Position numbers and translations under genes: made by a program | Assembly: GCF_025699255.1 (NCBI RefSeq) | Contig: NZ_JAILWA010000001.1 | Coordinates: 124,001 to 188,000, forward strand | Source of the DNA: Nitrosopumilus sp. | GTDB taxonomy: Archaea; Thermoproteota; Nitrososphaeria; Nitrososphaerales; Nitrosopumilaceae | Direction: 5' to 3' | Length of the DNA stretch: 64,000 bases | The notes under the pieces: model-generated | What the model was told of the DNA's origin: nothing | The model's input: the letters and a program-made list of their open reading frames with translations, nothing else | Databases searched by the model: none | Shown here: piece after piece, positions 53,122 to 64,000 of the stretch | How positions within the stretch are numbered: the first letter of the stretch is position 1 | How the letters are laid out: each line of letters begins with the position of its first letter

Positions 53122-53325
53122 ATGAACATAGGTAAAATCTCAAAAAATGAGAAAACTATCAAATTTGAAGCAGAAATTCACTGCGTACAGTGTGGGAAAA
53201 AAGTTCCAGGAGGATTAAAAACAAGTGAAAAATACTACCACACAAAAGAATTTAAAATTGAACTAGATAATTTTTTAAAAAAATATCTTTGTGGAATTTG
53301 TAGAGATAAAAAAAGAAGAGATTAA
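53122..53325 (+). CDS. Zinc-ribbon protein
   Basis: 67 residues with CVQC (about 21-24) and CGIC (about 57-60), basic C-terminus KKRRD. ATG 53122. Ends 4 bp inside the convergent repeat-protein gene. Confidence 0.65.
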   Translation: MNIGKISKNEKTIKFEAEIHCVQCGKKVPGGLKTSEKYYHTKEFKIELDNFLKKYLCGICRDKKRRD

Positions 53326-53993
53326 GACGAATCATCATCGTGTTTGTCGTCATTATCGTGTTTGTCGTCACTATCGTGTTTGTCGTCACTATCGTGTTTG
53401 TCGTCACTATCGTGTTTGTCGTCAGAATAGTTTTGATCTGGTCCAATGAACGAATAAGTAACATCAATTATACCAGTCTCAATAAACCCACATTCAATTA
53501 ACACTCCATTGATACCATTAAAATTTGCCAAAGTGATTATAAAACACTCAGGGAATTCAAAAATATCATCCACATCTGAAGGAAAATTATTTTGTTCGTG
53601 TACATTTACCTGAATAAGTGTCCTAGTATTTTGTAACTCAGGGTCTGCAATGAATACTTCATTTTCCATATTCAATGGATCTATCAGGATGCAAGGAGGT
53701 GCAATGTTGTCACAACTATCATGTAATTCAGGTTTATCAAATTCAAAAGAGAGAGAATTTACATAAATTCTGGAATCAGGATCAGTTTTGGACATGAAAT
53801 TGTTGTTTGCAGAATAGTTTTTTTGGGATTTGTCACGACTGTGTTCTTCATAGTCATTGTATTTTTTTTGTTCTTTGTCATCATAGTCTTTGTATTTTGA
53901 ATATTTGTCATCTGCAAAAACAGTAGAGCCAATAGTGATTGAGCCAATCAGTAATGCAGACATTACAAACATTACAAATAGTGATTTTGTCAT
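53322..53993 (-). CDS. Exported protein with C-terminal Asp/Lys/His repeats
   Basis: 223 residues. Signal peptide (SLFVMFVMSALLIGSITIGS, cleavage near VFA-DD), a charged stretch, a beta domain with two likely disulfides, and a tail of repeated D-S-D-D-K-H units. The tail may bind metal ions such as copper, zinc or calcium. Its promoter region contains two palindromes shared with the pilus locus. Confidence 0.75.
   Translation of the reverse strand: MTKSLFVMFVMSALLIGSITIGSTVFADDKYSKYKDYDDKEQKKYNDYEEHSRDKSQKNYSANNNFMSKTDPDSRIYVNSLSFEFDKPELHDSCDNIAPPCILIDPLNMENEVFIADPELQNTRTLIQVNVHEQNNFPSDVDDIFEFPECFIITLANFNGINGVLIECGFIETGIIDVTYSFIGPDQNYSDDKHDSDDKHDSDDKHDSDDKHDNDDKHDDDSS
53337..53426 (-). repeat. 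Five 18-bp tandem repeats coding DSDDKH
   Basis: Five nearly identical 18-bp units (plus-strand unit ATCGTGTTTGTCGTCACT) encode the hexapeptide repeat at the C-terminus of the exported protein. Unit 1 differs by one base, and the last unit in three bases. Near identity suggests recent expansion by slippage. Confidence 0.9.
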
Positions 53994-54032
53994 TAATTGT
54001 ATGTATTAGAAAAATCATATATTCTTATGATG

Positions 54033-54046
54033 TGTTCATATGAACA
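54033..54046. promoter_or_regulatory. 14-bp perfect palindrome TGTTCATATGAACA
   Basis: Lies 40 bp upstream of the start of the DKH-repeat gene. The half-site GTTCAT resembles repeats at 57527, 61889 and half of 61823. Confidence 0.5.
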
Positions 54047-54050
54047 AACG

Positions 54051-54067
54051 ATATGTTATGAACATAT
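54051..54067. promoter_or_regulatory. 17-bp inverted repeat ATATGTTATGAACATAT
   Basis: Seven-bp arms around a 3-bp centre, next to the previous palindrome, between the 905-residue gene's stop and the DKH-repeat gene. It matches the element at 61823-61839 at 15 of 17 positions. Confidence 0.5.
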
Positions 54068-56784
54068 TATAATTCTTCTTCTTCCCATTCTTCTTCTAAA
54101 TCAGTTTTAGATTTTCGTAGGAACAAAAATACAATAACTCCAACCATCAAAATACCGCCTATTACAATGTAAATTATCCATTCAGGCAATTCTAAATCAA
54201 TAGAATCGAAAACTCTTTCCGGTGCATCAACATTTACAGTGAATGAATCTTTTCCTTCTGCATAACCTTCAGCAGTAGCAATAATCTCAAATGAAATGTT
54301 AGGGCCTTCAAATGCAGTCAAACTAACAATAGCACTGCCATCAGAGCTTGTCCTAACAACTTCAGGAGTAATAATAGCATCATCTCCAGTAATTATTTTT
54401 AATGAGGCACCAGGAACAGATCCTGCATTTTCATCATCTACAAATAATCTGAATTCGGTAGGTTCATCTACTTTAATTTCGCTAGCTAAACCACCTGTAA
54501 AAATTTGCAATTGAGTTTGTGATGAAGCAGTGGTAATCAGTGTTGATGTGCCATTAACACCTTTAGCACTGGCAGAAATTATAGAGTTCCCTACACTTCC
54601 AGTAGTTTTAATAGGAAATGTAGCATATGATGTACCAGTAGGTATTATCGCATCATCAATTATTTGTACTACAGCATCAACAGAAGAGGTAATTTTTGAT
54701 TTTACAGGTAATTTTGGAATCACAGGGTTTCCTTGTAAGTCAACTAATTGGACCATTCCAAGATTGTGAGTGTGTTCAGAATTGATTTTTGAGAGAGGTA
54801 AGAAAACTTGTATTTTGGAAGAAGGTTGAGTTACAAAAGTTTTAGACCCTTCTAAATCAAAATTTGTTTTTTCACCTATAGGTTCAACAGTTAACGTGAC
54901 ACGTGTTTCCTCTACAGCCACATCAAATGTATCACTACGTAATTTAGTAAAAGTAAAGGTGGTTCCTTTTTCAATTTCCACTAAACCATTTGTAGGAGTG
55001 ATCAAATATTTTTCAGTTTCTTTCATTACTTTTGGTCGCTCTTTTCCATCAAGTGCAATTAAAAATACATCAAAAAATCCATCACGATCAAAAATTATAC
55101 TATCTTCTCCAATGGGAGAAAATATTCTAACTTCTTTTTGTTCCAATGTGTTTACAACATTAGTTGTAAATGAGCCAGTGCCAACACCATTTACAGAAGC
55201 AGAAATAGTTACAGGGCCTGTTTTTTGTCCTGTGGAAATTTCAGTAGTACCAAAAGAATAAGAGCTTGTTATTTTACCACCATCTTCAATTTTTGCTAAA
55301 TCATCATCACTTGAAATTACAGTAATTTGTTGAACATAACCATCACTGTATTGATTTTCTGCTGCTTGGACAGGATATAGTCCTTCATCATCCATACAAT
55401 CTACAGAAAACAGAATTCGTTCTTCAAAATCTAAATTAGAATTGTGTTCTACATCATCATCAGAACCCCCACTTTCATCATTTTGTTCAGCACATTCAGG
55501 ATGAATTGTGATAGGAGTTCCATCAGGACGAATACCATCATCATCTTCATCATCTTCAATTATAGATAATTGATATGTAAAGAATGCAGAAGAATTGCTA
55601 GGAATATTCTCTAATCCATATACACCAACAGTATGATCATAATTTTTTATATCAAAACCATAATCAAATACTTGGTTCATAGATCTTTTTATATTGTTGA
55701 TTCCCTCTATAGAAGTCCCTACAGTTCGAAAAGTGTCAGTAGCAGTTCCGTATCCAGGAGATGTCACACCTATCAAAATATCATTTTCAAGTAAATTTTG
55801 CAAACTAAACTTTTCTTGGAGTAGATATCCAAATTGTCCTTTTTTAATAACGGGTTTTTCAGAAATTCCAAAATCTTTCAATTTCTCACCTATAGGATAT
55901 TGCTCACTAGAAAAAAATTCCAACGGAATATTATCAGGAGTTTTTGTTGGATTTCCTTCTGAATCAACAACAGTTACAAAGATATTCAATTTTCTATCAA
56001 TCTCTGCAGGAATTAATTTTGGAAATACTGAAATTTTAATGGCAGTAGGCAAAGTAGAAGAAATTTTTACACTTTTTGCAACATCAAGTCCAGTTTCTTC
56101 ATGTATTGCACGTAAGAAGGTATTTCCTATTTTTTCATGTGTAGATAATACACCCCAAGCATAATAATCGCCTTTTTTAATTTTCAATGTTTCAGAATTT
56201 GGAGTGGCCAAAGATTCATGATCTAATAAAATATCAATATCATCAGGAGCCCTAACCAATACTCCATCAGGAGTGGTCAAATATACTGAAAAAGGCATCT
56301 CAGAATTTACGTGCATTTCAGATGTAGGCAGATTTAATTCCAAAACCAAATCATCAGGTAGGTAACTTTCATCAGTACCTACTTGGATTTTTTGAAAGGT
56401 TGTTTTTCCATTCAAACTTGCGGTAATAGTTGTTTTACCGGATGTTTCACCAGTAATTACAGGGAATGTCACATATTCTTCATTGGCTTTGAGAATTGCT
56501 TTTTTAGGAACTGATGCAATGGTGGGATCATCAGAATTTAGACTCACAGGAACATCATAAGATGAGGTGATTGGAACACCATGTTTACTTAGAACATATA
56601 GATATCCAACAGGATGTTCTGCAACTCCACTTTCCAAATGATCTGGTGAAATTGCTAGTTTAATAGAATAATCAGATAAAGCTTCTAAATTTTGAGCAGA
56701 TGCAGAATGGATATTCATTCCAAACAGTAAGATTAGTGCAAGAAAGAACATAGTTGGTTTTTTTGTTTTCATCTTTTTCTCCAT
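54067..56784 (-). CDS. Large membrane-anchored surface protein with Ig-like repeats
   Basis: 905 residues from ATG 56784 (ATG 56772 possible). Signal peptide (FFLALILLFGMNIHSASAQ), then a series of Big/Ig-like beta domains marked by repeats such as SGKTTITASLNG and TGPVTISASVNG, two acidic segments (DDEDDDGIRPDG and GGSDDDVEHN), a C-terminal membrane helix (IIYIVIGGILMVGVIVFLFL) and an acidic end (EEEWEEEEL). It lies next to the pilin genes and is probably a cell-surface adhesin or pilus partner. Confidence 0.85.
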   Translation of the reverse strand: MEKKMKTKKPTMFFLALILLFGMNIHSASAQNLEALSDYSIKLAISPDHLESGVAEHPVGYLYVLSKHGVPITSSYDVPVSLNSDDPTIASVPKKAILKANEEYVTFPVITGETSGKTTITASLNGKTTFQKIQVGTDESYLPDDLVLELNLPTSEMHVNSEMPFSVYLTTPDGVLVRAPDDIDILLDHESLATPNSETLKIKKGDYYAWGVLSTHEKIGNTFLRAIHEETGLDVAKSVKISSTLPTAIKISVFPKLIPAEIDRKLNIFVTVVDSEGNPTKTPDNIPLEFFSSEQYPIGEKLKDFGISEKPVIKKGQFGYLLQEKFSLQNLLENDILIGVTSPGYGTATDTFRTVGTSIEGINNIKRSMNQVFDYGFDIKNYDHTVGVYGLENIPSNSSAFFTYQLSIIEDDEDDDGIRPDGTPITIHPECAEQNDESGGSDDDVEHNSNLDFEERILFSVDCMDDEGLYPVQAAENQYSDGYVQQITVISSDDDLAKIEDGGKITSSYSFGTTEISTGQKTGPVTISASVNGVGTGSFTTNVVNTLEQKEVRIFSPIGEDSIIFDRDGFFDVFLIALDGKERPKVMKETEKYLITPTNGLVEIEKGTTFTFTKLRSDTFDVAVEETRVTLTVEPIGEKTNFDLEGSKTFVTQPSSKIQVFLPLSKINSEHTHNLGMVQLVDLQGNPVIPKLPVKSKITSSVDAVVQIIDDAIIPTGTSYATFPIKTTGSVGNSIISASAKGVNGTSTLITTASSQTQLQIFTGGLASEIKVDEPTEFRLFVDDENAGSVPGASLKIITGDDAIITPEVVRTSSDGSAIVSLTAFEGPNISFEIIATAEGYAEGKDSFTVNVDAPERVFDSIDLELPEWIIYIVIGGILMVGVIVFLFLRKSKTDLEEEWEEEEL

Positions 56785-56802
56785 TTTTCATTTTACTCCG
56801 TT

Positions 56803-56824
56803 TTTTTTCATAAAAATGAAAAAA
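56803..56824. terminator. A/T hairpin between pilin and surface protein genes
   Basis: TTTTTTCAT-AAAA-ATGAAAAAA forms a 9-bp stem in the 48-bp gap after the pilin stop. On the minus strand this gives a T-run right behind the pilin gene, a likely partial terminator that would lower expression of the downstream surface gene. Confidence 0.45.
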
Positions 56825-56832
56825 GGGTGGAG

Positions 56833-57483
56833 TTATCCACTTTGTTGTCCAGCTACGACAGTTCCAACAAACACAGCACCGTTAGCTGTAGTTAGTTTGA
56901 TCTGTGCATCTCTACCAAATGAAACATCTTGTTCCAATTCAAGTAGAAGTGTAGCTTGTTGACCTGGTTGTATTACGGCAGTTGGGTTTTGTGAAACATC
57001 TGCAATGTCTAGTGCGACACCTCTTTCAATGATTGTGAAGGAGTTTGGAAGCAGAACTACATCTGCATCAAATGTTTCTAGTGTTCCTTGGGTTGCATAT
57101 GTATATACACTACCAGCAAATCGTACCTCAGTTAATGCGGCTTGTGATACACCTTGGTTAGTCACATAGATTGCAACTCTTTCACCGGTCAATAGACCAT
57201 CATTTGCTCCACCAGATAGTACTGTTGGAATTGCTTGTTGATCAATTAAACCACCATCGTGTAATTGTAGGTTAGTCACATCAGTTGCGTCATATCCATT
57301 AATTTGGAGCGACTCAATTGTTGGGGCACCACTAATTTGTGCGGAACTAAAGAATCCTTGTGAAAACACAAAGACAATACTTCCACCAACGACTGCGATT
57401 GCTACCAGAAGAAGTGTTGCGATAACGGGAGCAACTGCTCTTCTTGAAGTCAATTTGTTTTGTTTTGACTGTAGTTTTGTCAT
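56833..57483 (-). CDS. Archaellin/pilin-like major subunit
   Basis: 216 residues. Class III signal: SRR at 13-15 followed by AVAPVIATLLLVAIAVVGG, cleaved by a PibD/FlaK-type peptidase. The beta-rich remainder has Gly/Thr/Ala composition of a filament subunit, without cysteines. It has its own promoter region with an 8-bp inverted repeat and a terminator, as expected for the abundant subunit. Confidence 0.85.
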   Translation of the reverse strand: MTKLQSKQNKLTSRRAVAPVIATLLLVAIAVVGGSIVFVFSQGFFSSAQISGAPTIESLQINGYDATDVTNLQLHDGGLIDQQAIPTVLSGGANDGLLTGERVAIYVTNQGVSQAALTEVRFAGSVYTYATQGTLETFDADVVLLPNSFTIIERGVALDIADVSQNPTAVIQPGQQATLLLELEQDVSFGRDAQIKLTTANGAVFVGTVVAGQQSG

Positions 57484-57526
57484 TTCTGAATTTCTTAAAA
57501 CTAGAAAAGATGTTAAAGGAATTTGT

Positions 57527-57550
57527 GTTCAAAATGGACTACTTTTGAAC
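57527..57550. promoter_or_regulatory. 8-bp inverted repeat upstream of major pilin
   Basis: GTTCAAAA-TGGACTAC-TTTTGAAC, 44-67 bp before the pilin start. The GTTCAAA half-site and TGGAC spacer recur at 61889-61908 before the ATPase gene. Confidence 0.5.
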
Positions 57551-57584
57551 CATTTGTATTTCTGTTTATTTATTTGAACAAAAA

Positions 57585-59363
57585 TTAAGAACCATCAACT
57601 TGTAAAACAACTTCAGACAAGGGTCCGATTGAAAAATCATTGTCAGTTTGTCCTTGTGCCAATACATACATCACATACATTTGATCAGAGGTTACATTAG
57701 GGGCTCTTGCACTAAATTGTATAGTATCAGCTACATTTGAGGCAGTACCCAAATCAGCAGATGTAGTTCCAACAATTTGAGTAGAGCCATCACCAAATGT
57801 TGTTATCGTAGTAGATGAAAATCCAGAAGTTCCTCCAAGTACAGACACATTTGACCACTCTCTTGGAACATTAATTATTAATTTTGCTCCAGATTTGATG
57901 AAAGTATTATCATCAGTGTCCAAATCAGCAAATACAAGATTAAAAGTTTCAACGTTGTTAGGAGTTATTCCTACTCTTGTAGATTGCATATCAGCATTAC
58001 TTCTAGAATTTACTACATCGGAAAGATAGACATTTCCTACAGTTTCAGAACCATCATACATAGTACTTTGATAACCAGATTTACCAAATGAACCAACGTT
58101 TGTAAATACAGAAGCTTGTACAACTATAGATTCCAAAATATTTTGTCCAGCAATGGTACCAGGCAAAATTTTAACTAAAAAAGACTGTGTTGAATTCGCA
58201 GGAATGGTTACGGGATTAGCAAAATTTTGCCACATGATAATGTTTTCTGAAGGACAATCCCAATAATTCGTACCAGCAGGGAAAATATTCTCAGCTAAAC
58301 AAGAAGCAGCAAAAAGTTTATCATTATTATTTGCTCCAGGAGAAAATGCAGTTATAGATAATTTACTTACTTCCATTGGAGCATTAACAGGGTTTGCAAT
58401 ATTTACTCCCCATAATGCTTTTTGACCAGAGTCACCTTGAGGAGAAGGAATTGTTAAGAATAATTTTGGACGTGCAAGTAATTCTTCATTAATAATATCA
58501 GGATCTTCGTTTCCTCCCCCATCAGTAGGCAATCTCAAGATACTTACATCAGAAACAACATTGCTTGATACATCATCAGGAATTACATCATCACCTCGTG
58601 CAACTGCTGAGAAAGTCAATAAATCAGAGCTATCACCAGTTACTTGATAATCCCAAGTAAACATTACAGATGCACCACTGTCTAAATCAACACTTGATGG
58701 AGTGTGAGAAGAAGATGCAACGATAGAACCACTTCCTGTTCCAACAAAAGATAAAGGATCCGGCTCCACGTTTTGGATTAAAGAGTTACCAGTATTGGTA
58801 ACTACCATAGCTATTGTTACATTTTGTCCAATAATCACATCAGGAGGATCAGTGACCAATTCAGCTCTAAGACCAGATGAACTAGGTCCTGTTCCAACAG
58901 TTAATTCTGAAACTTTGATTGTTCCAAAGGAAGAGACTATTTTGATATCATAAGTATCAGGAGTCATTTGTAGTATCTGATTTTCAACTACATTTTGAGT
59001 GAAACCAGATGGAACAAATGCATCATCATAATTTATTTCATATCGAGTTGCAGGTTGGGTAGGTAGTGTTTTGTTTGTAATCCAAATACTTGAAATTTCA
59101 ACAGGATTTTGACCAAAATTATTTACACTAACATTAAGAAAATTGTTTGCGTCAGTAGAAAGTACTAAACCAAACTGCTCTTGTTGTTTTTTAATTTCAA
59201 TATCAGACACTATTCGCTGAGTGGTCACAATATCAGTTTGAGCATCAAGTGCTAAACTTAGTACTGAAAATCCGGCAATCATTAAAACTGTAAAAAACAA
59301 GGCCCCCACTACAGAAGACAATCCACGCCTATTTCGGAATGAATTTGACGATTTTTTCTTCAT
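57585..59363 (-). CDS. Large pilin-like protein
   Basis: 592 residues. Prepilin-type N-terminus: NRRG (11-14) then LSSVVGALFFTVLMIAGFSV. The long C-terminal part has repeated beta domains, including one with TNTGNSLIQNV typical of surface adhesion modules. Probably a minor pilin or pilus tip/adhesin. Start overlaps the upstream stop by 1 bp. Confidence 0.82.
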   Translation of the reverse strand: MKKKSSNSFRNRRGLSSVVGALFFTVLMIAGFSVLSLALDAQTDIVTTQRIVSDIEIKKQQEQFGLVLSTDANNFLNVSVNNFGQNPVEISSIWITNKTLPTQPATRYEINYDDAFVPSGFTQNVVENQILQMTPDTYDIKIVSSFGTIKVSELTVGTGPSSSGLRAELVTDPPDVIIGQNVTIAMVVTNTGNSLIQNVEPDPLSFVGTGSGSIVASSSHTPSSVDLDSGASVMFTWDYQVTGDSSDLLTFSAVARGDDVIPDDVSSNVVSDVSILRLPTDGGGNEDPDIINEELLARPKLFLTIPSPQGDSGQKALWGVNIANPVNAPMEVSKLSITAFSPGANNNDKLFAASCLAENIFPAGTNYWDCPSENIIMWQNFANPVTIPANSTQSFLVKILPGTIAGQNILESIVVQASVFTNVGSFGKSGYQSTMYDGSETVGNVYLSDVVNSRSNADMQSTRVGITPNNVETFNLVFADLDTDDNTFIKSGAKLIINVPREWSNVSVLGGTSGFSSTTITTFGDGSTQIVGTTSADLGTASNVADTIQFSARAPNVTSDQMYVMYVLAQGQTDNDFSIGPLSEVVLQVDGS

Positions 59364-60046
59364 TACCTAGCATCACCGCTTTCTATCAGAAATTCAACAG
59401 GATGGCTGCTACCCGTGTTAAGCAAGATAGGAATACCTTTGTTTAATTGGATGTCAGGATTTGCCGAATCAAGTTTCACCAGAACGTTAACTATTTGACC
59501 ATTTTGAATCTCTATGTTATCATTATGAAGATTAGGATTATTGCCAGTTTTCAAAATTGAATACATTCCATCTGCAGGAAATTCACCTCCAGGCAAATCC
59601 AATATAGAACCAGAAGTAGACGGATCCCAAGAATACTTTTCCCCACTAACAAATACATCTTTTAAGAAAATTGAATCAATGCCATTATTTTGAACTTGAA
59701 TTACAATAAATTCAGTTCCACCCAATGCAGGAATAGTATCAGGATTTCCTGCACATGACGCTCTACACAAAAAAGAATTTGTCAGATTGTCAACTTCAGA
59801 CAGGGTTAGTAAATCAAGAGAATCTCGAGTATCGTATGCTAAAAGTAACAAATTAAGAGATGAAGATTCTAATGTAGACACTGTTCCAAGATTTCCAGAA
59901 ACAAAAGCATCATTCATAAAATATGTTAATGTACTTGCACCAGTTACAGTAACTGCCATCAACATCATGGTACTAATAACATCAGCTACTCCACGTCTAG
60001 TTTTAAGACGAGATTTTTTCTTTTTTTCAATTTTTGTTGATGACAT
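59363..60046 (-). CDS. Pilin-like protein
   Basis: About 227 residues from ATG 60046 (TTG 60058 possible). Basic head, TRRG (16-19) then VADVISTMMLMAVTVTGAST as the class III signal helix. Two cysteines (LCRASC) could form a disulfide. Minor pilin candidate; operonic with its neighbours. Confidence 0.8.
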   Translation of the reverse strand: MSSTKIEKKKKSRLKTRRGVADVISTMMLMAVTVTGASTLTYFMNDAFVSGNLGTVSTLESSSLNLLLLAYDTRDSLDLLTLSEVDNLTNSFLCRASCAGNPDTIPALGGTEFIVIQVQNNGIDSIFLKDVFVSGEKYSWDPSTSGSILDLPGGEFPADGMYSILKTGNNPNLHNDNIEIQNGQIVNVLVKLDSANPDIQLNKGIPILLNTGSSHPVEFLIESGDAR

Positions 60047-60061
60047 ATTAAATTTCAATTC

Positions 60062-60592
60062 CTATGTGTTAAATGGGCTAGCAACAGTTGTGATAAAATT
60101 ACCTTTTGAAGTCGTTAATGATATCTTATATTCAGAATTAACATAATATGGATCGTCCCAAATATTTGTACCAACAGGAAGAATGATTTCAGAATCATCA
60201 AGCAGATCAAGAATTAGTTTTCTGTTGTCCTTGATTGGAACAGATTCATTTACGTCAACCCAATTTGCAATTATTTCTTGAGTATCTATTTTTAAAATTG
60301 TCACATTTGTAATAGTAGATTCAACAGTTCCAATATTTGCCAAATCTATTTCCATATTATCACTTAGGGGTTCAAATCTAACATGTTCAAAAATTACATC
60401 TTCACGATGAATTTGGTTTTTTGATTTTTCATGAAAAGACAGATCATAAGTAAATGCACTGATACTATCCATCCCATTAAACAAAATTACTGAACCAACT
60501 GAGCTAACAATTCCAAGAATTACAACACTGCCTATTACTTGACTAACTGCACGTCTATTTTTCAAAGGAAGAATAGAAGATACATTTTTCAA
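60062..60592 (-). CDS. Pilin-like protein
   Basis: 176 residues. KNRR (11-14) then AVSQVIGSVVILGIVSSVGS, a class III signal; short beta domain after it. Start overlaps the upstream stop by 4 bp (ATGA). Minor pilin candidate. Confidence 0.82.
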   Translation of the reverse strand: MKNVSSILPLKNRRAVSQVIGSVVILGIVSSVGSVILFNGMDSISAFTYDLSFHEKSKNQIHREDVIFEHVRFEPLSDNMEIDLANIGTVESTITNVTILKIDTQEIIANWVDVNESVPIKDNRKLILDLLDDSEIILPVGTNIWDDPYYVNSEYKISLTTSKGNFITTVASPFNT

Positions 60593-61809
60593 TTTTTGCC
60601 ACCCTTTCGAGATTTCCTACCAGAGATAGCAGACTCAAAGGAAGTATTGTTTTCTGAGTGTGAGTGGTTTTGAGAATACCATTCAGAGACAAATTCTTCC
60701 ACCTTTGTTAAAATTTGAGAAAAGTCAGGTTCAGAAATCAGATGAATACCATAGTGTTTGGCAAGATTTTCAACCCCAGAATTTAATCCAGATACGGTAA
60801 CCAATACAGTATTGGTAGGATCAATGTCTAATTTTGGAACAAGAATTGAATTCATGTCAGATTGATCAATGCCATTATTTTGATTTTTGATAAAAATAAG
60901 TATGGATTCATTGGTGGTTTTACTTTTAGCATAAATTGGAATGTCGTGAATATTTCCACTTTTTCCTTTTATTGAGACATTTAATTTTGCGGTGAAATTG
61001 AATCCTTGTAATAATTTTAACAATTCATCTTTGATTTGATTTGTATCAGAGTTTATAGAAATTTCAGAATTTTTTAATTTATAGCTAAATGTAGTAATAA
61101 ACTGTCCAGAATTGGTATCAAAATCATGTTCGTGTTTTCTACAATGTAATTTTATCACCGCATTATCAAATTTCTCAGAACAATCATCGCATTGATACCA
61201 CATGGCAGGGACACGAATTTCTTTTTCAAAATTTTTAATGGGTTTATTACATGAAGGACAATTAGAGGTATTGCTGTCACTAAAATCAAAATTAACACTT
61301 TCAGTAATATAACCACATTTTTTGTGTTCAAATAGATTCAATTTTTCTACACTCATCGAGTGACATTTTGGACAGTAAAGACGCATACTAGAAGAAAAAG
61401 TATCAGGGTGTATTGGACAAACAATTAATTTTTCATAAACTTTTTTCTCCAGTATTCCATCTGCAACCAAATCATCAAGACATGTAATGTTATCTTGAAG
61501 TTCACCTATTTTAGATAAAATTGGATAAAACAAACGCCCTTCATTATAATCGATAAAAGGTTTGATTGTTCTATCTTCAATTTTTTGAACTTCTTGAATA
61601 AGTTGAACAGCTTTGTTAGCAGTAGGTTTTGAAAAATCTGTTTCTTGTGGCTGCATAGAATCCTCAATTAACGAAGTTTCAACAATCACATCACTTTCAA
61701 AATCAGAAGATTTACCTTTAAAAAAGGAGGACAAAGTGTCTAATTTGGGCAATTTGTGCTCATTTTTAGAAGAAATATCAGAATCAGGCACAGATTTCTT
61801 TCTAAACAT
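60589..61809 (-). CDS. TackOD1-like zinc domain fused to restriction-endonuclease-like domain
   Basis: 406 residues from ATG 61809. After a disordered head, residues about 85-215 (FYPILSKIGELQDNITCLDD, CPIH, LYCPKCHSMSVEKL, HKKCGYITE, CPSC, CDDC) match thaumarchaeal output domain TackOD1. The last 130 residues (IHDIPIYAKSK, SILIFIKNQNNG) look like an Mrr/PD-(D/E)XK fold, with unclear catalytic residues. First gene of the pilin operon, so it may be a regulator or assembly factor rather than a defence nuclease. Confidence 0.75.
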   Translation of the reverse strand: MFRKKSVPDSDISSKNEHKLPKLDTLSSFFKGKSSDFESDVIVETSLIEDSMQPQETDFSKPTANKAVQLIQEVQKIEDRTIKPFIDYNEGRLFYPILSKIGELQDNITCLDDLVADGILEKKVYEKLIVCPIHPDTFSSSMRLYCPKCHSMSVEKLNLFEHKKCGYITESVNFDFSDSNTSNCPSCNKPIKNFEKEIRVPAMWYQCDDCSEKFDNAVIKLHCRKHEHDFDTNSGQFITTFSYKLKNSEISINSDTNQIKDELLKLLQGFNFTAKLNVSIKGKSGNIHDIPIYAKSKTTNESILIFIKNQNNGIDQSDMNSILVPKLDIDPTNTVLVTVSGLNSGVENLAKHYGIHLISEPDFSQILTKVEEFVSEWYSQNHSHSENNTSFESAISGRKSRKGGKN

Positions 61810-61822
61810 TAGGCAACACCTC

Positions 61823-61839
61823 ATATGATGTGAACATAT
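61823..61839. promoter_or_regulatory. 17-bp element ATATGATGTGAACATAT
   Basis: Lies 14-30 bp upstream of the TackOD1-like gene's start. Same length as the element at 54051-54067 and identical at 15 of 17 positions, but the central bases break the full symmetry here. Confidence 0.45.
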
Positions 61840-61888
61840 CACTTACCATGGTAATTTTAGAACGAGAAGAAAGAGTAAAAAGAAAAGG

Positions 61889-61908
61889 TTGTTCAAATGG
61901 ACGAACAA
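61889..61908. promoter_or_regulatory. Inverted repeat TTGTTC-8-GAACAA
   Basis: TTGTTC-AAATGGAC-GAACAA is in the divergent promoter region, 20 bp before GTG 61928 of the ATPase. Its 8-nt spacer contains TGGAC like the 57527 repeat. Next to it lies GCGTTAAAACGC (61909-61920), a second short inverted repeat. Confidence 0.45.
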
Positions 61909-61927
61909 GCGTTAAAACGCGTATCAT

Positions 61928-63565
61928 GTGCATGGAAAGTCGAAATTGAGATTCAATATTTTAAAAAATAGTTTGTCATCCATACAAAAAATATCATCAG
62001 GAGATAAATCAATCTTAAAATCAAATAAAAAACAACCAAAAAAAATTTCAGAAAATATAGAAAATGAGTTAAAAATTCCTCAATTCATGACACTGTCTAA
62101 ATTGGATTGGGATCACAACGAAATTCATGCAGGGATTATCAAAGACCCTTCAGCAAAAGGAGGGTTGAGATACCATGTTATCGAACCTGTTCTTTCAGAA
62201 AGAGACCAAAAAGCATTTGAAATAATAAAGAAATTACTAATGACAGAATTAACAGTGTCTTTACAAGACATTAAATCAAAAAAAGACGCAGAACGCAGAT
62301 TAAAAAAGAAAATCATGTCAATGATTAAAAAATATAGATTAAAGATTCCGCCTAAAAACATTGCAAAAATAAATTATTTTGCAGTAAGAGATTTTGTCTA
62401 TCTAGGAAGAATAGAACCACTAATGCGGGATCATATGATTGAAGAGATTAGTTGTGATGGAACAAATATTCCAATATACATTTGGCACAGAGAACACGAA
62501 TCAATGCCAACCAACATAATTTATGAAAAAGAATCAGAATTAAATAACTTTTCAAGAAAGATGGCATATATTTGTGGAAAGCATGTTTCCATGGCAGACC
62601 CAATTATAGACGCATCATTGCCAAACGGAAGCAGAATAAACCTGACTTTAGGTCATGAAATTACAAAAAGAGGAAGTACGTTTACAATAAGGAGATTTAG
62701 GGCAGATCCAATCACAGTCATTGATTTGATAAAATTTGGGACAATGTCTATAGACATTGCAGCATACATGTGGTATTTGGCTGAAAAAAAATCCACAATG
62801 CTTGTTGCGGGAGGCACTGCAAGTGGCAAAACAACCGCACTCAATGCTTTGGCCACATTCATACGACCAGGCGAAAAAGTAGTCAGTATTGAAGATACTC
62901 AGGAACTAAACCTGCCTCACGAGAATTGGATACCTGCCGTATCTAGACAAAATTTTACAGATACGCAAGTAGGGGAAATTAATCAGTTTGATCTACTCAG
63001 AGCAGCACTAAGACAAAGACCAGACATCATTATCGTAGGAGAAACAAGAGGAAGAGAAGCATATACTTTATTTCAAGCAATGGCCACAGGTCACGGAGGA
63101 TTTTCATCAATACATGCAGATTCAGTAGATGCAACACTCACAAGATTAACATCCTCACCAATGGATGTACCAAAGGCATTAATCGCAAACAGCTTAGATT
63201 TGATCACTCTTCAATTAAAAATCAGAGTAGGAGACAAATCATTAAGAAGAATCATCCAGGTTTCTGAAATTGATGGAATAGATGAAACGACAGGACAAAT
63301 TAAAACACATGAAATTTTCAAATGGAATCCAAAAACAGATGTTCACGAATATGCCGGAGATAGTGTAATTTTTAGAAAACTCAAAGAGCGTGATGGAGAC
63401 AGTGAAGAAAAAATCAATTATGAATTAACCAAAAGAAGATTGGCATTAGAATGGATGGTAAAAAACGACATTCGTGATCATAAAGAAGTATCCACAAATG
63501 TCATGGACTTTTATGCAGATCCTGAAAGATACTATGAACGAAAAAGATTAGAGGTACAAGTATGA
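61928..63565 (+). CDS. Type II/IV secretion ATPase of pilus/archaellum type (TadA/ArlI-like)
   Basis: 545 residues from GTG 61928; TTG 61946 is an alternative. Walker A GGTASGKT (295-302), Asp box SIEDTQELNLPHEN, Walker B DIIIVGETRGRE and His box HGGFSSIHAD are complete. It powers assembly of the filament from the divergent pilin genes. Its stop overlaps the next start (ATGA). Confidence 0.92.
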   Translation: MHGKSKLRFNILKNSLSSIQKISSGDKSILKSNKKQPKKISENIENELKIPQFMTLSKLDWDHNEIHAGIIKDPSAKGGLRYHVIEPVLSERDQKAFEIIKKLLMTELTVSLQDIKSKKDAERRLKKKIMSMIKKYRLKIPPKNIAKINYFAVRDFVYLGRIEPLMRDHMIEEISCDGTNIPIYIWHREHESMPTNIIYEKESELNNFSRKMAYICGKHVSMADPIIDASLPNGSRINLTLGHEITKRGSTFTIRRFRADPITVIDLIKFGTMSIDIAAYMWYLAEKKSTMLVAGGTASGKTTALNALATFIRPGEKVVSIEDTQELNLPHENWIPAVSRQNFTDTQVGEINQFDLLRAALRQRPDIIIVGETRGREAYTLFQAMATGHGGFSSIHADSVDATLTRLTSSPMDVPKALIANSLDLITLQLKIRVGDKSLRRIIQVSEIDGIDETTGQIKTHEIFKWNPKTDVHEYAGDSVIFRKLKERDGDSEEKINYELTKRRLALEWMVKNDIRDHKEVSTNVMDFYADPERYYERKRLEVQV

Positions 63566-64000
63566 AATTAGCTGGCAACAAACAACAAAAGAAAATAGAA
63601 GAAGAGTCAGTAGGCCAACTTCATGTATATAGTTATAAAATTCTAAATGATTATGTTAAATTCCTACATCCAAAATTAACATCATTAGACAAATCAATCA
63701 AACAGGCAATGATGCCAATTCCATTTGAAGTCTATGTTTCAAGCATGGTATTCTTTAGCATGATTGCAGGAGGATGTGGAGTTGTAATGGGAATAGTAGC
63801 ATCTCAATTTATCAACATACAACCAGCAAGTGTGGGAATGATTTTGCCCTTGTTAACAGGATTGATGCTTTTTGGAATGACGTTTGGAATATTACAAACA
63901 ATTCCTGCAATTAGAGTTAAAAATAGGGCAGCAAAATTGGTTGAAGAAATACCACATTTTATTGGCTACATGTCAACACTAGCTACAAGTGGCCTTACAC
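63562..64000 (+). CDS. TadC/ArlJ-like membrane platform protein, N-terminal part (cut by window edge)
   Basis: ATG 63562 overlaps the ATPase stop. The visible 146 residues have a basic soluble head, two membrane helices (VYVSSMVFFSMIAGGCGVVM and VGMILPLLTGLMLFGMTFGI), and then LVEEIPHFIGYMSTLATSG, the start of the T2SS F domain. It anchors the ATPase and the growing filament in the membrane. Confidence 0.85.
   Translation, partial: MKLAGNKQQKKIEEESVGQLHVYSYKILNDYVKFLHPKLTSLDKSIKQAMMPIPFEVYVSSMVFFSMIAGGCGVVMGIVASQFINIQPASVGMILPLLTGLMLFGMTFGILQTIPAIRVKNRAAKLVEEIPHFIGYMSTLATSGLT

Follow-up and report, generated by a model that had tools for sequence, protein, structure and literature searches.

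A probably adhesive type IV pilus locus of Nitrosopumilus with a split platform, a giant prepilin and a zinc-ribbon protein with a predicted nuclease-like fold lacking the catalytic triad

Which surface appendage is encoded at positions 53322-64000 of a 64,000-nucleotide stretch of Nitrosopumilus sp. DNA (the window; 124001-188000 of contig 1, NZ_JAILWA010000001.1)? The genome comprises 1.65 Mb, is 99.5% complete and has close relatives labelled Nitrosopumilus and Nitrosarchaeum. At this locus, an operon of four prepilin genes begins with the gene for a zinc-ribbon protein (the lead protein) and ends with that for a 905-aa surface protein, and the genes for a pilus ATPase and a membrane platform diverge from it. 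The preliminary description of the window took the locus for something type IV pilus-like, neither archaellum nor bacterial Tad locus, with an adhesin-like partner, and suggested that the appendage may not yet have been described. The former view is borne out. The latter is not, because thaumarchaeal pilus types and TackOD1 loci have already been reported (PMC4858521, PMC7554672 and PMC5847659). We consider it probable that its genes specify a complete archaeal type IV pilus belonging to a type already recognised in ammonia-oxidising archaea (AOA), most likely an adhesive filament.

We checked the reading frames against the sequence. All ORFs noted earlier were present and intact on the strands given, including four proteins with class III signals (176, 227, 592 and 216 residues) on the minus strand and a diverging pair of ATPase and TadC/ArlJ-like genes. 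We took as a class III signal the motif [KR]R[GA] with some 20 hydrophobic residues after it. The ATPase matched T2SSE in Pfam (3e-41), and Archaeoglobus GspE2 aligned to it with 373.6 bits; its best NCBIfam match was the archaellum FlaI model, at 409.6 bits against a cut-off of 550. A second TadC, which the preliminary description had proposed to look for past position 64000, was present there. Both platform genes matched T2SSF (4.5e-14 and 2.1e-16). TadC1 covered positions 5-249 of the ArlJ model and TadC2 covered positions 263-541, indicating an ArlJ/TadC protein split in two. In addition, a prepilin peptidase of 232 aa is encoded at the genome's second pilus locus (Peptidase_A24 4.1e-7, over the cut-off). 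Judged by its genes, the locus is an archaeal type IV pilus locus, with an assembly ATPase, a platform, class III prepilins and a prepilin peptidase in the genome.

The arrangement is conserved. With the ATPase as query, a genome search yielded 22 loci of the Nitrosopumilales type at 61-93% identity, followed by Bathyarchaeota, one Nitrosocaldus and Asgard archaea. The preliminary description had suggested comparing gene order across Nitrosopumilales, and we found the order lead gene, 176-, 227- and 592-aa prepilins, divergent from ATPase, TadC1 and TadC2, in about 20 loci, judged only where the flanks were long enough. A TrmB gene usually follows TadC2 in these syntenic loci. The genes for the 216-aa pilin and the 905-aa protein behave as a module, which is inverted in L054 and L194, and a membrane-anchored surface partner is almost constant. 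In Nitrosocaldus schleperae, homologues of nine parts, some of them weak, lie in one stretch (L072). Within the genus, a near-complete lead gene was found in 10 of 40 sampled genomes, pointing to patchy presence.

The lead protein was compared by sequence and by predicted structure. Its N-terminal half is TackOD1 (PF18551; 2.7e-22, 79.7 bits against a cut-off of 32), and the cysteines of the CXXC-type motifs are invariant in the family alignment. The C-terminus matched Mrr_cat weakly (0.06). In an AlphaFold model, confident over residues ~60-390, the C-terminal domain is predicted to have a restriction-endonuclease-like alpha-beta core. Foldseek returned AF1548 as the best match to the model (3.7e-6), followed by the CRISPR ancillary nucleases Can2/Cdn1, with modest TM scores; a sequence search for solved homologues returned none. 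We aligned 44 relatives from Nitrosopumilales, Nitrosocaldus and Bathyarchaeota and set the positions of the triad motif by eye from the alignment and the model. A GKSGxxH motif was almost constant, and a complete D...(D/E/Q)xK triad was found in 0 of the 44. The Bathyarchaeota proteins kept the acidic residues and lost the lysine; those of Nitrosopumilales lost the second acidic position and mostly the first as well. Because the triad is never complete in these relatives, a nuclease role is unlikely, and we rejected the reading of the lead gene as an active nuclease. It had been called nuclease-like, which holds for the fold and not for the catalytic triad.

Of 300 genomes of the phylum, 196 had a member of the TackOD1 family. 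Among the matches listed, TackOD1 proteins lay within 10 kb of at least 32 of 46 pilus-type ATPases, a lower bound because only listed matches count and not all contigs are long enough. The corresponding count for archaellum ATPases was 0 of 81 (Fisher p 2e-19, only indicative because the genomes are not phylogenetically independent). The 46 were the listed FlaI-model matches below the cut-off (~417-465 bits) and may therefore include other pilus types. TackOD1, or arCOG06883, a double zinc-ribbon, was reported earlier from thaumarchaeal pilus loci with an obscure function; in the open-access literature we found it only in the two papers concerned (PMC4858521, PMC5847659), so we assert no priority. 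This genome (G000) encodes two more TackOD1 proteins, away from both pilus loci (G000:C1:61384-61803 and G000:C8:44327-44737).

Among the four prepilins, only the 216-aa protein passed the TIGR02537 cut-off (31.5 bits, cut-off 20); it also matched Pilin_N (1.3e-4). The 176-aa prepilin matched Pilin_N weakly (0.023), and the 227-aa prepilin had no match in Pfam. The 592-aa pilin scored slightly below the cut-off of DUF7507. Its AlphaFold model (mean pLDDT 75, moderate confidence) shows a 48-residue class III helix and, after it, some four beta-sandwich domains, and a fold search with it matched tandem Ig-type proteins, many of them surface proteins. The predicted tandem domains resemble adhesin domains, which we counted in favour of adhesion. 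In G099, the homologue of this pilin is split into ORFs of 374 and 220 aa (L193:4973-6763), either a pseudogene or a sequencing error. In the 905-aa protein, a signal peptide and a transmembrane segment at the C-terminus were recognised from sequence, and the protein is distantly related to an 870-aa protein of the genome's other pilus locus. It had been described as an Ig-like surface protein; its presence, strand and export signal were confirmed, and the Ig-like assignment is weak in Pfam (Big_1 0.32, SpaA 0.04).

From these parts, we propose the following working scheme. The prepilin peptidase from the second pilus locus would cleave each of the four prepilins behind its RRG or RRA. The ATPase would power a two-part membrane platform of TadC1 and TadC2, and the pilins would be stacked by their N-terminal helices. 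The shaft would consist of the 216-aa pilin, and the 176-, 227- and 592-aa pilins may form an initiating or tip complex in which the multi-domain 592-aa protein is exposed for binding. The membrane-anchored 905-aa protein could serve as a partner at the surface or as a passage through the S-layer. The TackOD1/pseudo-nuclease protein would be a cytoplasmic zinc-binding scaffold or regulator dedicated to the ATPase type of the window, not a nuclease. Some observations weigh against an adhesive pilus of this composition. Adhesion is argued from analogy and from the large surface-exposed proteins, and the 592-aa model gave only generic fold matches of the tandem beta-sandwich kind, with TM ~0.15-0.2. 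The choice of the major pilin is a guess from sequence features. Finally, locus L056 lacks the lead gene, which is therefore not strictly required. The coordinates of the features are collected in Table 1.

Table 1. Features of the pilus locus in window numbering
Feature	Position	Strand	Basis
Lead gene; TackOD1 zinc-ribbon and PD-(D/E)XK nuclease-like fold without catalytic triad; 417 aa (~406 from ATG)	60589..61842	-	
Prepilin, 176 aa; class III signal RRA/VSQVIGSVVIL (slash, signal boundary)	60062..60592	-	sequence; syntenic orthologues
Prepilin, 227 aa from ATG (231 from upstream TTG); class III signal RRG/VADVISTMML	59363..60058	-	sequence; syntenic orthologues
Giant prepilin, 592 aa; class III signal RRG/LSSVVGALFF; candidate tip adhesin	57585..59363	-	sequence, AlphaFold model, fold matches
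Prepilin, 216 aa; class III signal RRA/VAPVIATLLL; candidate major pilin	56833..57483	-	sequence, Pilin_N, TIGR02537
Exported Ig-like surface partner, 905 aa; C-terminal membrane anchor	54067..56784	-	sequence, syntenic homologues
DKH-repeat exported protein	53322-53993		
Conserved promoter-region element between divergent operons; dyad TTGTTC-N8-GAACAA at 61889-61908	61871..61918		
Pilus assembly ATPase, VirB11/T2SSE family, 545 aa; start codon uncertain	61928..63565	+	T2SSE, FlaI model, tree
TadC1, first half of split ArlJ/TadC platform, 307 aa	63562-64485 (window part 63562..64000)	+	T2SSF, ArlJ model
TadC2, second platform half, 309 aa	64490-65419 (past window end)		T2SSF, ArlJ model
TrmB-type regulator	65688-66536 (past 64000)		
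HEAT-repeat protein	66618-67121 (past 64000)		

The relationships of the ATPase were determined in a maximum-likelihood tree (iqtree) and in a second tree to which Archaeoglobus GspE2 was added. The ATPases of ammonia oxidisers formed four groups: archaellum, a group near Ups/Bas, the vWA/MoxR type of the genome's other pilus locus, and the type of the window. In the first tree, the window ATPase grouped with those of Bathyarchaeota, Nitrosocaldus and Asgard archaea (96%), and this group was sister to the archaellum (99%). In the second, GspE2 joined the window-type group (99%) and the support for the sister relationship fell to 87%. The window ATPase lay outside the UpsE/BasE group in both trees; the Sulfolobales UpsE sequences were identified via the neighbouring UpsF gene, and the BasE and Aap labels are presumptive. 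Four pilus types, two of them termed adhesion-like, are recognised in ammonia oxidisers (Abby et al. 2020, PMC7554672). Our four groups agree with them in number, and we infer that they correspond one to one. The window type appears to fit clade 2 of Makarova et al. (2016, PMC4858521), in which two tadC genes are common and to which a few Thaumarchaea are said to belong; the clade name is assigned from a small tree. Archaeoglobus GspE2 stands for the clade 2 pili, which share with the window locus the ATPase grouping in the second tree and the two tadC genes.

The vWA and MoxR genes are tied to thaumarchaeal subclade 4A (Makarova et al. 2016, PMC4858521). The second pilus locus of this genome, L006 (G000:C1:94001-110000), encodes MoxR, vWA, an ATPase, a one-piece TadC and the prepilin peptidase, together with two nearly identical tandem 214-aa pilins and the 870-aa protein, which is of Ig type. 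Its opposite strand encodes two more class III proteins, one of 176 aa and one of more than 547 aa.

Thaumarchaeal type IV pili with adhesin or S-layer partners have been catalogued (PMC4858521, PMC7554672). The adhesion-like pili of AOA share with the window locus an ATPase, one or two TadC, pilins, a large adhesin or S-layer-like protein, and arCOG06883; the available portions of these texts are silent on a pseudo-nuclease domain, on giant-pilin domains and on a promoter dyad. Euryarchaeal PilA systems, as described there, differ in pilin set and lead protein. The features that appear new are the pseudo-nuclease architecture, its association with one pilus type, the composition of the giant pilin, and a locus-specific promoter element. 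Ammonia-oxidising archaea rank among Earth's most abundant cells, and the functions of their pili are described as not established (PMC7554672). The locus offers a compact part list for such a pilus, with a platform encoded by two genes, one giant pilin, an anchored surface protein, the pseudo-nuclease as a constant partner and a promoter element that occurs only once in the genome. Its patchy presence in the genus could help to explain which lineages attach to sediment, groundwater solids or biofilms.

A broader reading is less likely than not: the locus may represent a distinct pilus lineage of Thermoproteota, with an ATPase sister to that of the archaellum, marked by a dedicated cytoplasmic zinc-ribbon/nuclease-fold protein acting as a non-catalytic sensor or scaffold. 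If this is true, the protein would link nucleic acid or some other ligand with the assembly of the pilus or with the control of its genes.

A non-filamentous assembly resembling the Sulfolobus bindosome, in which the pilus machine would build a short structure for displaying or anchoring large Ig-type proteins, is unlikely. The bindosome is a precedent (PMC4858521), the pilins of the window are few and very unequal in size, and large surface proteins are their constant partners. However, the locus has a conserved 216-aa pilin of typical form, with a strong class III region, and the window ATPase does not group with the BasE candidate.

We regard as quite improbable an Ups-like pilus for aggregation and DNA exchange, in which the nuclease-fold lead protein would handle DNA at the pilus base. 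The Ups and Bas systems of Sulfolobales also have a pilus ATPase, a platform and class III pilins, and the Ups operon, like that of the window, includes a cytoplasmic protein of unassigned function, UpsX, whose deletion in Sulfolobus keeps the pili and lowers DNA transfer (PMC3892339). The zinc ribbons and nuclease fold of the lead protein would suit such a role. In contrast, the ATPase belongs to another clade, UpsF is one protein whereas the platform of the window has two parts, the triad is missing, and the neighbourhood of the locus showed no DNA-transfer genes. A relation between the lead protein and UpsX was rejected, since profile comparison gave a probability of 0.1%.

The archaellum is the closest characterised system in its ATPase and ArlJ platform families. 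We searched the genes past position 64000 and the whole genome for its other components. No arlC-H genes lie beside the locus, and ArlF, G and H were not profile-searched genome-wide; the absence of accessory genes, noted before for the visible part, thus extends past 64000, with no complete arl set there. No archaellin (PF01917) matched in the whole genome, and neither did ArlD/E (PF04659), a weak test given that only 1 of 250 genomes of the class matches. The archaellum ATPases of genus relatives score 580-597 with the FlaI model, whereas neither of the genome's two pilus ATPases reaches its cut-off and no ATPase genome-wide exceeds it. In addition, the platform of the window is split. The genus relatives G033 and G030 carry the lead gene together with an archaellum ATPase above the cut-off, indicating that the pilus locus and the archaellum are separate systems and that the one did not replace the other. 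On these grounds a reduced or derived archaellum, a rotating or once-rotating filament without accessory genes, is hardly credible and was rejected, despite the best NCBIfam matches (FlaI for the ATPase, ArlJ for the platform halves) and the sister position of the ATPase clade.

Returning to the proposed adhesive pilus, its two operons are separated by an 85-bp gap. In 20 aligned loci this gap retains, with variations and in this order, AGTAAAAG, TTGTTC-N8-GAACAA and GTTAAAAC. The whole genome holds a single exact copy of the dyad TTGTTC-N8-GAACAA, and TGTTC-N8-GAACA was observed once in the window against 0.15 expected. The dyad arms hardly vary; some copies have lost the outermost pair with no compensating change, as judged by eye and uncounted. 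The element was not found in the Nitrosotenuis loci examined. The loop carries ATG or TTG in every copy. The frame behind this triplet closes within ~25 codons in most copies, including that of the window, and for most copies we therefore rejected the conserved stretch as the N-terminus of the ATPase; the element is not simply coding sequence of that gene. The simplest reading is a candidate DNA operator for the adjacent TrmB-type regulator, so that the dyad would let one regulator, presumably this one, switch both divergent operons together. The element may alternatively be a short upstream ORF or an RNA hairpin.

The DKH-repeat exported protein had been listed with the gene set. It is present, and it is not a regular part, as it was absent from the other syntenic loci examined. 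A relative occurs in one other of 60 genus genomes, G035 (L198; 55% over 154 aa), about 7 kb from the lead-gene homologue of that genome. The protein is thus not supported as a core part.

Two further observations concern the related loci. Unrelated ORFs lie between the surface-partner module and the giant pilin in L192 (L192:3531-4979, 482 aa) and L194 (L194:3686-5875, 729 aa), and this insertion point is possibly a variable slot. Finally, L042, titled Nitrososphaeraceae, has an ATPase 86% identical to that of the window, and L093, titled Methanocellales, has one at ~50% that is Bathyarchaeota-like; both records are probably mislabelled or misbinned.

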